From: Micromonospora sp. H61
GTDB lineage: Bacteria > Actinomycetota > Actinomycetes > Mycobacteriales > Micromonosporaceae
Direction of reading: 5' to 3'
Assembly (NCBI RefSeq): GCF_018070325.1
Contig: NZ_JAGPXY010000010.1
Coordinates: 1 to 64,000, forward strand
DNA length: 64,000 bases
Below the pieces are notes generated by a model. It was given only the letters and a program-made list of their open reading frames with translations. It was not told the origin of the DNA and did no database searches. Shown one piece after another: positions 2,371 to 43,071 of the stretch. Made by a program: the position numbers and the translations under genes. Numbering within the stretch: position 1 is the first letter of the stretch; every line of letters starts with the position of its first letter.

Positions 2371-2934
2371 ATGGAGGCGGTCATCGAGGTACCCGCGGTC
2401 ACCGACGGATCGCCGTGGCCGGTGGCAGCGATGGCGTCCGGATCGTGGTTGATGCTCAACGCCGGCTGTGCCGGCGACCAGGTCGGGCTGTTCGTGACGG
2501 CGCTCGCTGGCCGGATCGAGGTTCAGCCTCCTGGCGGCCGCGATGAGGTCGTAAACGCGCTGCTGGCTGACGAATTTCTCATCGCTGCCGGCGACCTGCA
2601 GGTCCGCGACCCCACCACCGGGACGGTGATGACGCCGGGCTGCTGTGCCGGGCTGGAGGACTGGCGCGACTGGGCGCAGGTGTTGATCGGCGACTCGCCG
2701 TGGCTGGGACATGACCCGGGTCCGGAGGTCGAGTTCGTCAGCGACGATCTGCGGGTGCGGCAGGACGGCGGCGAGACCCGGCATCGCGGCCGGTGGGCCG
2801 GCGTCCACGTTGACCTGCCACAAAGCGCGCTACCCGGGCTGCTGATCGGCGTGCAACGGGACCTGGTCGGCTTCTTCGACGCCCTCACCGGATGGGCCAC
2901 GCGAATCGGACTGCAGCGCCCGGGACCGCTCTAG
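2371..2934 (+). CDS. Hypothetical protein
   Basis: This 187-residue soluble protein is not assigned to a family I know. It is rich in aspartate, glycine and valine and includes the segment TPGCCAGLEDWRDWAQV with a double cysteine. The ATG at 2371 has a GGGG run about 8 bases upstream; a GTG at 2362 and a TTG at 2350 are alternatives. Codon use is typical of the window, so it is probably a real gene. It stands alone between unrelated genes. Confidence 0.6.
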   Translation: MEAVIEVPAVTDGSPWPVAAMASGSWLMLNAGCAGDQVGLFVTALAGRIEVQPPGGRDEVVNALLADEFLIAAGDLQVRDPTTGTVMTPGCCAGLEDWRDWAQVLIGDSPWLGHDPGPEVEFVSDDLRVRQDGGETRHRGRWAGVHVDLPQSALPGLLIGVQRDLVGFFDALTGWATRIGLQRPGPL

Positions 2935-3053
2935 TTAAAGCGATCGACAAGAACTTCGCGATCACGGCGCCGTTGGACGTACAGCACTTCCGCTAGCGCT
3001 GTCATCGGCAAACCACTCGACCAGCGCCGATCAGGATCGGTGACCTTGGCGCC

Positions 3054-3470
3054 TCAGCGGGCAGGTGCGCGACGTCCGGTGGCCCCAAGCAAGTCCCACC
3101 GGTTGCCGGCGATGTCGAGGAAGACCGCGACCCGGCCGTAGGGCTCGGTTCGTGGCGCTCGGACGAAGGTCACATCGGCCTCGACCATCCGCCGGTATGC
3201 GGCGTCGAAGTCGTCGACGCGGAGGAAGAACCCGACTCGGCCGGCTACCTGGTTACCGATTGCGGCGCGTTGGTGTTCTCCGTCGGCGCGAGCGAGCAGA
3301 ATCCCGGTCTGGGCGCCCGGCGGCCGGACGACGACCCACCGCTTGGGTCGACCGTCATTGGTCAGCGAGGGAGAGTCCTCGACGAGGTCGAAGCCGAGTA
3401 CGTCGGTGAAGAACGCGATCGCGGGGTCGTACTCGTCGACAATCAGGGCAACCAAGTCGATCTGCACCAC
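3054..3470 (-). CDS. VOC family (glyoxalase/bleomycin resistance) protein
   Basis: This is a single-domain vicinal oxygen chelate protein of 138 residues. The N-terminal half has the usual strand-helix opening (IDLVALIVDEYDPAIAFFTDVLGF) and the second module ends in VAVFLDIAGNRWDLLG, the typical final strand with its metal-ligand-like acidic position. Such proteins bind a divalent metal and act in isomerisation, dioxygenation or drug sequestration; the substrate cannot be read here. Start: a GTG pair at 3465-3470 gives MVQIDLVALI; the longer upstream frame is not coding-like. It is convergent with the gene at 3546 only if that weak call is right. Confidence 0.8.
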   Translation of the reverse strand: MVQIDLVALIVDEYDPAIAFFTDVLGFDLVEDSPSLTNDGRPKRWVVVRPPGAQTGILLARADGEHQRAAIGNQVAGRVGFFLRVDDFDAAYRRMVEADVTFVRAPRTEPYGRVAVFLDIAGNRWDLLGATGRRAPAR

Positions 3471-38749: not shown

Positions 38750-38803
38750 CGCCGGTCAAGTTACCCCGTGCCAGCCGGCCGACGGGCGCGTAGGGTGGAT
38801 CAC

Positions 38804-38863
38804 ATGCTCGCGCAGTTGACCAGTTGGTGGCCCGCCGACCCGGCGGCCATCTCCCGCGCGTAG
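38804..38863 (+). CDS. trp-type attenuator leader peptide
   Basis: The 19-codon frame encodes MLAQLTSWWPADPAAISRA with two adjacent Trp codons (38825-38830), followed by TAG and then GC-rich inverted repeats ahead of the anthranilate synthase gene. This is the hallmark of Trp-dependent ribosome stalling. TAGGGT at 38791-38796 is a -10-like hexamer 7 bases before the ATG, so the leader mRNA is probably leaderless. Its role as the sensor of charged tRNA-Trp is inferred. Confidence 0.8.
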   Translation: MLAQLTSWWPADPAAISRA

Positions 38864-38931
38864 CTCCATCCACGCGGCCGCCATCGAGGCGGTCGCCGGA
38901 TCTCCCGGCTCCAGGGCCGCCCGACGGCGGC
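38841..38931 (+). promoter_or_regulatory. Candidate attenuator hairpins ahead of the anthranilate synthase gene
   Basis: GGCGGCC (38842-38848, inside the leader after the Trp codons) can pair perfectly with GGCCGCC (38876-38882). That second segment can instead pair with GGCGGTC (38888-38894). A further hairpin GCCGCC-CGAC-GGCGGC lies at 38916-38931, before the ribosome binding site. These mutually exclusive pairings are what an attenuator needs. No T-tract is present, so termination or translational masking are both possible. Confidence 0.55.
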
Positions 38932-38953
38932 ACCCAGCCCGACGGAGACTCCG

Positions 38954-40876
38954 ATGACCCACCTGACCGACCTGCTCGCCGCCGTCGCGCACGGCGTCGA
39001 CCCCGGCCCCTTCGCGCTGCTGCGCCGCGAGGGCGCGGACGAACTGGACCTGTTCACCGGCCCGATCGACACCGTCGAAGCGCTCACCGACCTCCCGTTG
39101 CCGGCGGGCCCGCCCGGGGCACGGACGCTGGCCCTGGTGCCGTACCGGCAGATCACCGAACGCGGCTTCGCCTGCGTCGACGACGGCGCCCCGCTGGAGT
39201 TCCTCCAGGTCCGCGAGCACCAACGGATCGCGCTGGCCGACGCCCTCGCCGCGCTGCCCGACGAACCGGTGCACACCACCGACGCCGGCTTCGACGTCAG
39301 CGACGAGGAGTACGCGCGGACCGTGCAGCGGGTGCTGTCCGAGGAGATCGGCCGCGGCGAGGGCGCGAACTTCGTCATCCATCGCGCCCTGCACGCCACG
39401 GTGCAGGGCCCACCGCTGGGGGCCGCGCTGGCCGCACTGCGCCGGCTGCTGATCGCCGAACGCGGCGCATACTGGACGTTCGTGGTGCACACCGGCACCC
39501 GGACGCTGGTCGGCGCCAGCCCGGAGCGCCACGTCAGCGTCGACGACGGACTGGTGATGATGAACCCGATCAGCGGCACCCTCCGCTGCCCCGGTGGCGT
39601 CGCGGACCGGGCGGCCCTGCTGCGTTTCCTCGCCGATGAGAAGGAGACCGAAGAGCTGTACATGGTGCTCGACGAGGAGCTGAAGATGATGGCCACCGTC
39701 GCCGAGCACGGTGGGCAGGTGATCGGGCCGTACCTGAAGGAGATGTCGCACCTGGCGCACACCGAGTACCTGCTCGCCGGGCGGGGCACCCGTGACGTGC
39801 GGGAGGTGCTGCGCGAGACGATGTTCGCCCCCACCGTCACCGGCAGCCCGATCGAGAACGCCTGCCGGGTGATCGCCCGCCACGAACACCGGGGCCGGGG
39901 CTACTACGGGGGCGTGCTGGCACTGCTCGGCCAGGACGACGCCGGCCGGCAGACGCTCGACGCCCCGATCCTGATCCGGACCGCCGAGATCTCCCCCACC
40001 GGCCGACTGCGGGTGCCGGTCGGCGCGACCCTGGTCCGGCACTCGACGGCGGCCGGCGAGGTGGCCGAGACGCACGCCAAGGCCGCCGGCGTGCTGGCCG
40101 CGCTCGGCCTCGGGCCGGCGGCGTCCGTCGGCGACAGCGGGCCGGTCGCGCGGCTGACCGACGACCCGGCGGTACGCGACGCGCTGGCCGCCCGCAACGC
40201 ACCGCTGGCGCGGTTCTGGCTGGACCAACGCGCACCGGACGCGCCCGGACTGCCCGGACTGGTCGGCCGCCGGGTGTTGATCGTGGACGCCGAGGACACC
40301 TTCACCGGAATGCTGGCCCACCAACTGAGCGCGTTGGGTCTCGCGGTGACCACCCGTCCCTGGCACGCGAGCGGCCCGGTCGACGACTACGACCTGGTGG
40401 TCGCCGGTCCCGGACCGGGCGACCCGGGCAGCGCGGACGAGCCGAAGATGCTGGCGCTGCGCAAGCTGCTGACCGGACTGCTGACCACCGGCCGTCCCAC
40501 CCTCGCGGTCTGCCTCGGCCATCAGGTGCTGGCCGGGCTGCTGGGGCTGACGCTGCACCGCCGGGACGCGCCCTACCAGGGGTTGCAGCGGGAGGTGACG
40601 CTGTTCGGCCGGGCCCGCCGGGTCGGGTTCTACTCGACGTTCACCGCCCGCGCCGAGGCCGACCGGCTGGCCACCGCGTACGGGCCGGTGGAGCTGGCCC
40701 GCGACCCGGACGACGGCGCCGTGCACGCCCTGCGGGGGCACGGCTTCGCCGGCGTGCAGTTCCACGCGGAGTCGGTGCTCAGCCCGGACGGGCTCGCCGT
40801 GCTCAGTGAGCTGTTGACCGGGCTGCTGCCCGCGCCGCGCCCGGACGAGCTGTCCGCGACGCGCGGAGGCGCATAG
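38954..40876 (+). CDS. Fused anthranilate synthase (TrpE-TrpG / PhzE-like)
   Basis: This is a 640-residue two-domain enzyme. The chorismate-binding TrpE-like part spans about 1-410, with GASPERHVSV, NPISGTLR and the catalytic region AEISPTGRLRVPVGATLVRHS. A class I glutamine amidotransferase follows at about 435-625, with the nucleophile Cys520 in AVCLGHQ and the triad HAES near the end. The order and length resemble PhzE-type anthranilate/ADIC synthases. It converts chorismate plus glutamine to anthranilate (or aminodeoxyisochorismate). The Trp-Trp leader upstream argues for a tryptophan-biosynthetic or tryptophan-sensitive role. No other trp or phenazine gene is adjacent. ATG 38954 with GGAG upstream. 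Confidence 0.93.
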   Translation: MTHLTDLLAAVAHGVDPGPFALLRREGADELDLFTGPIDTVEALTDLPLPAGPPGARTLALVPYRQITERGFACVDDGAPLEFLQVREHQRIALADALAALPDEPVHTTDAGFDVSDEEYARTVQRVLSEEIGRGEGANFVIHRALHATVQGPPLGAALAALRRLLIAERGAYWTFVVHTGTRTLVGASPERHVSVDDGLVMMNPISGTLRCPGGVADRAALLRFLADEKETEELYMVLDEELKMMATVAEHGGQVIGPYLKEMSHLAHTEYLLAGRGTRDVREVLRETMFAPTVTGSPIENACRVIARHEHRGRGYYGGVLALLGQDDAGRQTLDAPILIRTAEISPTGRLRVPVGATLVRHSTAAGEVAETHAKAAGVLAALGLGPAASVGDSGPVARLTDDPAVRDALAARNAPLARFWLDQRAPDAPGLPGLVGRRVLIVDAEDTFTGMLAHQLSALGLAVTTRPWHASGPVDDYDLVVAGPGPGDPGSADEPKMLALRKLLTGLLTTGRPTLAVCLGHQVLAGLLGLTLHRRDAPYQGLQREVTLFGRARRVGFYSTFTARAEADRLATAYGPVELARDPDDGAVHALRGHGFAGVQFHAESVLSPDGLAVLSELLTGLLPAPRPDELSATRGGA

Positions 40877-41883: not shown

Positions 41884-42252
41884 TCAGTGGACCAGGGCCG
41901 CCATCAGCCGGTCCAGCTCGGCCGCCGGGTCGACGGTGAGACCGGTGTGCACCGGCCCCGTCTGGATCATCGTGCTGCGCGGCGCGGCCAGCCAGTGGAA
42001 CCGCTCACCGAGCCGCATCCGGGTCGCCGGCCCGTCACCGGAGCAGGTCCGGTCCCAGGAGTCGAGCACCGCGGCCACCGCCGGCAGGTCGACGTCGGGC
42101 GCCAGCGCGCGAACCCGGTCGGCGTCCAGGTGCGTCCGCGCGGCCAGGAAGTCGCGCTGCTGGCAGTAGAGCAACACCCCGACGTTGATCTGCTCACCGC
42201 GCTCGATTCGGGGCACGAGCCGGATCAGCGCGTACTCGAAGGGTTGCCTCAT
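41884..42252 (-). CDS. DUF3037 domain-containing protein
   Basis: This 122-residue soluble protein reads MRQPFEYALIRLVPRIERGEQINVGVLLYC at its start, the DUF3037 signature, and ends with a helix (PAAELDRLMAALVH). Function unknown. The ATG overlaps the stop of the HipA-family kinase by ATGA, so the two are co-translated. DUF3037 and HipA-like genes are a recurrent pair in bacteria, suggesting a regulator, substrate or antidote relationship that is not established. The 294-bp gap before the wrbA start shows nothing further. Confidence 0.88.
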   Translation of the reverse strand: MRQPFEYALIRLVPRIERGEQINVGVLLYCQQRDFLAARTHLDADRVRALAPDVDLPAVAAVLDSWDRTCSGDGPATRMRLGERFHWLAAPRSTMIQTGPVHTGLTVDPAAELDRLMAALVH

Positions 42253-43007
42253 GCCCCGCTCCCCGATGGCAGCCAGTCGGCCGTGCGGGCGACCCGGCGG
42301 GACAGGTGATCCAGGTACGCGCCGCGCGCCGCGTCGGCCGTCTCGAAGTCGGCGGCGGTCAACCACTCCCCCGGCACCAGGGCCAGCACCTCGGTGAGCA
42401 GCTCCGGGGTGACCTGGGGGGCCAGCTCGGCGTCGGCCTCGGCCAGCCGCGACGCGTACGGGCCCAGCACGTGATCCTCAGCGCGGTAGGCCCGGTGCAC
42501 AGCGGCCTCGGCGCGCGGCCAGTTGTGGTGGAAGTACAGGCAGGCGCCGTGGTCGATCAGCCACAGCTCCCGGTGCCAGACGAGCAGGTTCGGGTTGCGC
42601 CAACTCCGGTCGACGTTTTCCACGAACGCGTCGAACCAGAGCACCCGGGAGGCCAACGCCGGGTCGACGGGGTGCGCCACCGGGTCGAAGCCCAGCGCCC
42701 CGGGCAGGAAGTCCATCCCGAGGTTGGCGCCGCCGCTGTTGCGCAGCAGCTCCTGCACCTCCTGGTCGGGCTCGGCCCGCCCGATCACCGGGTCGATGTC
42801 GAGGACCACCAGCGGCGGCACCCGCAACCCCAGCCGGCGCGCCAACTCACCGCAGATCACCTCGGCGATCAGCGCCTTGGGCCCCTGACCGGCGCCTCGG
42901 AACTTCGCCACGTAGGTGCCCAGGTCGTCGGCCTCCACCACGCCCGGCAGCGACCCACCCTCGCGCAGCGGGGTGACGTAACGGATCGCGGTGACCTGGC
43001 GGAGCAC
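42249..43007 (-). CDS. HipA-family kinase
   Basis: This is a 252-residue kinase-fold protein, shorter than classical HipA (about 440). The N-terminal region has YVAKFRGAGQGPKALIAEVICGELARRLGL with the ATP-contacting lysine. The catalytic loop is FVENVDRSWRNPN near 140-152 (Asp, Asn), and the metal-binding acid lies in LWLIDHGACLYF. It may phosphorylate a protein; the target is unknown. GTG 43007 lies 7 bases after TAGGGT on this strand, a leaderless promoter that decides the start. There is no HipB-like antitoxin; the coupled partner is DUF3037 instead. Confidence 0.85.
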   Translation of the reverse strand: MLRQVTAIRYVTPLREGGSLPGVVEADDLGTYVAKFRGAGQGPKALIAEVICGELARRLGLRVPPLVVLDIDPVIGRAEPDQEVQELLRNSGGANLGMDFLPGALGFDPVAHPVDPALASRVLWFDAFVENVDRSWRNPNLLVWHRELWLIDHGACLYFHHNWPRAEAAVHRAYRAEDHVLGPYASRLAEADAELAPQVTPELLTEVLALVPGEWLTAADFETADAARGAYLDHLSRRVARTADWLPSGSGA

Positions 43008-43071
43008 GCCGCCCACCCTACTGTGGCCGGCCGGGACGGGTGGCGGGCCGGCCCAGACCGGCACGCGCGGG

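Follow-up and report, generated by a model that had tools for sequence, protein, structure and literature searches.

Does a short open reading frame with two adjacent tryptophan codons, lying ahead of a fused anthranilate synthase gene in Micromonospora sp. H61, belong to a transcription attenuator, and what would that attenuator control? A preliminary description had read the locus in this way from the letters of the window (the whole stretch of DNA analysed, 64,000 nucleotides). We compared the locus with its orthologues, folded the leader RNA and placed the fused enzyme among its relatives.

A tandem-tryptophan leader before a fused gene

The elements named in the preliminary description are all present at base resolution. 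The 19-codon frame with TGG TGG runs exactly as described; the hexamer TAGGGT is followed by 7 nt and then by the ATG at 38804; GGCGGCC, GGCCGCC and GGCGGTC (38888–38894) succeed one another so that the middle 7-mer pairs with either neighbour; and the downstream TrpE–TrpG fusion carries chorismate-binding and GATase domains. The features of the locus are as follows.

38791–38796, plus strand: −10 promoter hexamer TAGGGT, 7 nt 5′ of the leader ATG; TANNNT in 110 of 110 Micromonospora loci
38804–38863, plus strand: trpL leader ORF, 19 codons, MLAQLTSWWPADPAAISRA, stop TAG; this length and WWPA conserved in 110 of 110; presumably leaderless
38809–38813, plus strand: segment 1a, CGCGC, codons 2–4, 5′ side of the outer 1:2 stem, pairing with 38856–38860 (covariation and duplex test)
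38825–38830, plus strand: regulatory TGG TGG, codons 8–9; WW in 110 of 110
38829–38836, plus strand: segment 1b, GGCCCGCC, 5′ side of the inner 1:2 stem, sharing bases with the second Trp codon (covariation and duplex test)
38842–38848, plus strand: segment 2, GGCGGCC, partner of segment 1b or segment 3 (alignment pairing counts, folding)
38856–38861, plus strand: segment 2b, GCGCGT, leader end; partner of segment 1a or, through its GCGT, of ACGC at 38872–38875 inside the antiterminator
38876–38882, plus strand: segment 3, GGCCGCC, with the terminator arm extending to 38874; antiterminator with 38842–38848 or terminator with 38888–38894
38888–38896, plus strand: segment 4, GGCGGTCGC, 3′ arm of a terminator-like 9-bp hairpin; 98.6% of cells paired (23 sequences); no U-tract follows in Micromonospora
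38897–38953, plus strand: second G+C-rich hairpin region, with predicted pairing of the Shine–Dalgarno (SD) sequence GGAG (38944–38947) to CUCC (38902–38905); putative role, from folding
38954–40876, plus strand: fused anthranilate synthase TrpE–TrpG, PhzE-like, 640 residues (domains, similarity, tree); presumed regulated gene

The leader frame sits inside a longer open frame, and 90 nt separate its stop codon from the start of the fused gene. In a two-strand scan it was the single frame of fewer than 35 codons in the 64-kb window that combines TGG TGG with a TANNNT hexamer at this kind of spacing, and the 30 kb searched around the two other chorismate-binding loci of the genome held none. At the gathering score, Rfam identified one tRNA in the window and no attenuator. 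The fused gene is flanked by a divergent FGGY kinase gene and, downstream, by a gene for a WrbA-type flavoprotein; further on, on the minus strand (41884–43064), the gene for a HipA-like kinase (HipA_2) and a DUF3037 gene overlap.

The −10 spacing fits the leaderless leader transcript that had been proposed, whose start would lie at or beside the ATG. A TTGAC-like −35 element was absent in the window, and at the corresponding position the genus consensus reads TTCC. This stretch lies 20 nt upstream of the −10 hexamer and is conserved at 74–94% per base in 110 genus loci, a pattern from which the window departs. It differs from the TTGAC at the −35 position of leaderless genes of Streptomyces lividans, as passages of PMC8079986 give it.

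Aligning the leaders of orthologous loci had been suggested as a check. Across Micromonospora, a 19-codon leader with WWPA at residues 8–11 was present in 110 of 110 upstream regions, and the stem arms were conserved; these regions comprise 30 loci from the match search and 80 more chosen down its list, not at random, and one of the 110 is the window itself. The distance from TANNNT to the leader start was 7 nt in 61 loci and 6 nt in 49, and the leader stop lay 86 to 111 nt from the protein match where this was measured. Orthologues lacking both the Trp codons and the alternative stems, the case named in advance as fatal to the idea, were looked for and not found among these loci.

The fused protein itself was matched in 159 of the 160 genus genomes. 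A covariance model of the attenuator, applied to ten genus genomes with odd results, matched in five and failed to match in five; among the latter, the fused protein had no match in one and a weaker match in four. These five (G101, G121, G127, G143 and G025) have neither an attenuator match nor a full-strength fused gene, and in two of them, G127 and G143, both single contigs, canonical TrpE also falls below its cut-off.

Competing helices and the point of decision

Over 23 diverse sequences, 96.3% of the cells of the combined 1:2 and 3:4 structure were paired, compared with 30–59% when the partners were slid by 1–3 columns. Six pairs had changes on both sides, a number reached in 0 of 500 shuffles, and yet the +3 slide came out nearly equal to the structure on covariation (score 0.100 with 12 pair types, against 0.105 with 12). 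The outer stem 1a:2b (38809–38813 with 38856–38860) was paired in 545 of 550 cells in the genus and in 91.3% over the 23 sequences, where two of its five pairs had changed on both sides; the segment 1b arm was paired in 96.9%. For the 2:3 core the figures were 98.1% paired and one double change, found in Kutzneria where segments 1b, 2 and 3 are altered together, with 38 of 500 shuffles as high. Adding the inner antiterminator helix (GCGT with ACGC, 81.3% paired by itself) gave 92.1% paired and two double changes, with 3 of 500 shuffles as high. The +2 slide outscored the 2:3 pairing on some covariation measures, both for the core alone and with the inner helix. Because slid controls come close to the structure or exceed it, the covariation evidence is weakened and our confidence in the attenuator slightly lowered. 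The second leader alignment omits five Streptomyces rows and those of Yinghuangia, Embleya and L059, since the first alignment had misplaced segment 3 of Streptomyces.

In a comparison that needs no alignment, the duplex energy of each leader's own arms was set against that of swapped arms in 5,000 permutations. The 31 representatives were hand-picked, all have TGG TGG (a one-Trp Pseudofrankia row was excluded) and are related to each other, so the counts are not independent. Own arms were better than swapped arms for 1a:2b (−14.2 versus −11.3; better in 28 of 31), for 1b:2 (−15.5 versus −14.4; 24 of 31) and for 3:4 (−21.7 versus −18.6; 30 of 31), each with 0 of 5,000 permutations as good. For 2:3 the difference was not significant (−16.4 versus −16.2; 23 of 31; 449 of 5,000 permutations). 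Covariation by itself is modest, and the weight of the argument lies with the paired cells and this duplex comparison. Mutually exclusive 1:2, 2:3 and 3:4 helices of the classical kind are conserved, with a 2:3 core that hardly covaries. The outer stem occupies codons 2–4, and in Embleya, where the arms were read by eye, it takes in the GTG start codon.

Folding of the 31 representatives predicts a switch as long as segment 4 has not been made. When the RNA ended with segment 3 and the Trp codons were masked (the stretch under a stalled ribosome removed), 2:3 formed in 31 of 31. Naked RNA of the same length preferred 1b:2 over 2:3 in 29 of 31, and removal of the stretch under a terminating ribosome left 2:3 with less than one expected pair in 28 of 31. 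The ribosome footprint in these folds is an assumed value. With segment 4 present, 3:4 won at equilibrium in all three states and in all 31 leaders; an antiterminator from equilibrium folding of complete leaders with masked Trp codons was obtained in 0 of 31. Since 3:4 always wins once segment 4 exists, the decision must be kinetic, as it is in classical attenuators. We also considered a relay (F:G) into the hairpin before the SD sequence, which is pairable (737 of 758 cells) and is disfavoured by the folds.

These results lead us to support the preliminary reading: with a probability of about 0.86, the leader is a ribosome-mediated transcription attenuator that senses charged tRNA-Trp and controls the fused trpEG gene. 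A short tandem-Trp leader frame stands before a probable gene for tryptophan biosynthesis, and its Trp codons and stems are conserved. Transcription would begin at or beside the leader ATG, and the leaderless RNA would take up a ribosome at its 5′ end. When tryptophan is scarce, the ribosome would stall on UGG UGG and cover segments 1a and 1b. Segment 2 could then pair with segment 3 while segment 4 has yet to be transcribed, and RNA polymerase would enter trpEG. When tryptophan is plentiful, a ribosome at the stop codon would cover segment 2; with no ribosome on the RNA, 1:2 would form. Either way, segment 3 would be left free for the 3:4 hairpin and transcription would stop, in Micromonospora without the help of a U-tract.

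In lacking a U-tract, Micromonospora departs from a classical attenuator. None was found after the genus 3:4 hairpin: the 10 nt after segment 4 hold a mean of 2.4 T, and the longest T run in the following 18 nt is 1 in 82, 2 in 23 and 3 in 5 of the 110 loci. A U-tract (6–8 T in 10 nt) is present in three Kutzneria, in three of four Catellatospora and in one Embleya. Both PMC8079986 and PMC1262725 describe a U-rich stretch or poly-U in Streptomyces, whereas the five Streptomyces rows here have 2–4 T among the first 10 nt past the stem.

The absence of a U-tract speaks for another reading, in which the leader and stems still sense tryptophan but intrinsic termination does not decide in Micromonospora. 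The decision would fall to Rho, acting in the stretch between the leader and trpEG, or to translation initiation, with the 38897–38953 hairpin hiding the trpEG SD sequence. Over 60 loci the SD pairing probability was 0.82 compared with 0.68 in shuffles, and 47 loci exceeded their own shuffle mean, although these are related and not independent; in the window it was 1.0. However, the hairpin was predicted alike with the Trp codons masked and with the stop codon masked, and is thus uncoupled from the switch. Outside Micromonospora the effect was small (0.76 versus 0.65; 20 of 27 loci), and the 3:4 hairpin is still almost fully paired over the 23 sequences. The predicted SD hiding amounts to a weak trend, and we consider a decision by Rho or at translation unlikely. 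The hairpin over the fused gene's SD sequence is itself a strong prediction in the window and close relatives, and some Streptomyces rows have a counterpart of it, GTTCCTCTCC...GGAAGGAAC.

The fused enzyme and its canonical counterpart

The nearest named records come from M. foliorum, with 95% over 392 residues, and from M. chokoriensis, with 92%. The fused protein lies below every NCBIfam cut-off among the best 25 of 38 families (top score 149 bits, versus 645) and lacks the LLES motif, and so has neither mark of a canonical TrpE. Its best solved relative is the phenazine enzyme PhzE (3r74; E = 1.1 × 10^−174, over almost the whole length). The label PhzE-like is therefore apt as a statement of similarity. 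In a tree of 68 rows (67 of 80 loci plus the window, with 13 near-duplicate or partial rows omitted), however, the protein groups with those of Frankiaceae and Micromonosporaceae. It falls outside a clade of 28 rows, supported at 100/99, that holds three Pseudomonas proteins, Pseudomonas PhzE among them, and many from Streptomyces; support for the deepest forks of the tree is weak.

The leader follows the same division. It was found in 52 of the 80 named relatives, in 51 within 450 nt upstream and in Dactylosporangium vinaceum beyond that distance because of an extended protein start. The 28 relatives without it, scanned over 450 nt upstream, are the single clade that contains Pseudomonas PhzE. 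In D. vinaceum (L037, about 2452–3100) a long repetitive stretch follows the leader region, ahead of where the protein usually starts, and was read as an extension of the enzyme. One of the 52 leaders, that of a Pseudofrankia, carries TGG CGG where the others have TGG TGG; this record (L023) and L203, perhaps the same species, keep the stem arms and represent a natural one-Trp variant.

Isochorismatase (PhzD) is linked to phenazine clusters. We examined 15 flanking frames from 14 of the 28 clade loci, picked by length and place, some of which may be non-coding. Nine of the 11 upstream frames were isochorismatases, as expected for PhzD, and the other two had no family; none of the four downstream frames was one. 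Among the identified neighbours in the window there was no isochorismatase. Neither in its clade nor in these neighbours does the gene match a phenazine-cluster phzE.

These comparisons bear on the possibility that the fused gene serves a specialized metabolite by way of ADIC, as phenazine PhzE does, with the leader merely coupling that pathway to tryptophan status. The sequence match to PhzE as the closest solved protein, the lack of LLES and the presence of a canonical TrpE in the same genome all speak for it. Yet a gene matched in 159 of 160 genus genomes is more widespread than expected of a cluster gene, and it lies outside the leader-negative clade whose loci, where tested, mostly carry an upstream isochorismatase, which was not found among the identified window neighbours. 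We regard a role in specialized metabolism as improbable. The fused enzyme probably starts tryptophan synthesis, and its product would be anthranilate.

Applied to the class, the covariance model matched 109 of 394 genomes and 20 of 137 genera. Apart from the window, 29 matching loci were inspected. In 25 of them a TGG TGG leader stands ahead of a gene related to the fused one, and in one the leader is of the TGG CGG form; of the remaining three, two lie upstream of trpD and the third upstream of trpS. The trpD cases come from two genomes of one family (f19) and the trpS case from another genome (module loci L218 from 1501, L227 on the minus strand and L226 from 370). GGCGGCC-type repeats are common in G+C-rich DNA, but a chance frame beside chance repeats is refuted by the orthologues, which keep the length of the frame, its Trp codons, the −10 spacing and the paired arms; this explanation is left with a negligible probability.

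The preliminary description had called the fused gene unlinked to other trp genes, and it does lie apart from them: a canonical TrpE, over its cut-off, is encoded with trpC and trpB in a his–trp cluster on another contig (C257), and trpD is on a third (C200). Canonical TrpE was over its cut-off in 95 of 101 genus genomes, so the two enzymes normally coexist. The canonical enzyme has LLES, part of the allosteric Trp site according to passages of PMC6437058. The motif was absent from all 38 leader-type and 28 other relatives of the fused enzyme, in a scan that began at the tblastn match start and may miss a few N-terminal residues. No Trp leader with TGG TGG was found around the genome's own canonical trpE, and no TANNNT-spaced Trp leader before its trpD or its two trpS genes. 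A second covariance-model match in this genome (C214, E = 0.037) is a false positive, a post-gene hairpin with no leader frame; a third (C254) had E = 3.7.

We tentatively suggest, as a possibility rather than the probable case, that the fused paralogue is a Trp-insensitive synthase checked by attenuation alone, beside a presumably feedback-inhibited LLES-bearing TrpE, and that the 1a:2b stem adds a rule for ribosome loading. If so, the LLES-less enzyme would be opened only when tRNA-Trp is uncharged, and the leaderless RNA would need its ribosome before about 57 nt are made; otherwise the start region would be locked and the terminator would form.

Precedent and significance

In the E. coli trp leader, tandem Trp codons govern the choice among 1:2, 2:3 and 3:4 helices. 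The Micromonospora locus shares this logic and the tandem codons and differs in that it precedes a single fused gene apart from the other trp genes, is probably leaderless and has no Rfam match at the gathering score.

Closer precedents exist. In S. lividans, passages of PMC8079986 report that trpL1 (SLIV_27122; MFAHSTRNWWWTAHPAAH) is leaderless by RNA-seq, precedes monocistronic trpE (SLIV_27120) and has hairpins and a U-rich stretch, and that trpL2 precedes trpS. Common to both loci are a short, leaderless ORF (presumptively so in Micromonospora) that contains consecutive Trp codons, hairpins and a single trpE-type gene downstream; trpL1 has three Trp codons and an AAGGCC-flanked hairpin, whereas the Micromonospora leader has two Trp codons. 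A peptide nearly identical to trpL1, MFAHSTQNWWWTAHPAAR, precedes a fused gene in L065, from which we infer that SLIV_27120 is of the fused type. In PMC1262725, attenuators of the classical type are predicted for trp genes of Streptomyces and Corynebacterium and for S. avermitilis trpS2, with a gGCC-rGCy-GGCC triple in Streptomyces; that paper and PMC4833913 both refer to Lin et al. 1998 for experimental work on S. venezuelae. The Micromonospora locus shares with the Streptomyces type a related fused gene, TANNNT at 6–7 nt and a GGCC-type triple, and from the spacing alone a leaderless start would be expected as well. In Sinorhizobium meliloti, according to passages of PMC7298713, the transcript starts at the trpL ATG before trpE(G) and is controlled by transcription attenuation. 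The start at a short trpL ATG would be common to both; S. meliloti belongs to another phylum and has a 14-residue leader with trans-acting roles for RNA and peptide, in contrast to the 19 codons of Micromonospora.

The element is thus of a type already known from Streptomyces, and Micromonospora is a further member. The preliminary description was right in its observations and, as far as the letters of the DNA can tell, in its mechanism; it also noted that Trp attenuation is known in actinobacteria. It rated the novelty too high and understated the precedent, since a leaderless leader before trpE of S. lividans is published (PMC8079986, in the passages cited above).

For Micromonospora, no report of an attenuator was found in the open literature, at the level of titles and abstract starts; Wolf et al. 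2017 is reportedly a study of Actinoplanes. For Streptomyces a leader before trpS has been published, and no report of a trpD leader was found in the partial texts consulted. What is added here is the wider spread, a covarying stem close to the start codon, the module before trpD, the Micromonospora hairpin with no U-tract behind it and, encoded in the same genome, a canonical TrpE that has LLES and for which no attenuator was found.

The Trp leader is a conserved mark of one group of fused anthranilate synthases and separates them from phenazine PhzE, which is the closest by sequence among solved proteins. Attenuation on a leaderless RNA could be studied at this locus in its natural setting, and so could a terminator-like hairpin with no U-tract. 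It also presents a testable division of labour, in which two anthranilate synthases of one cell may be controlled by allostery and by attenuation, respectively.
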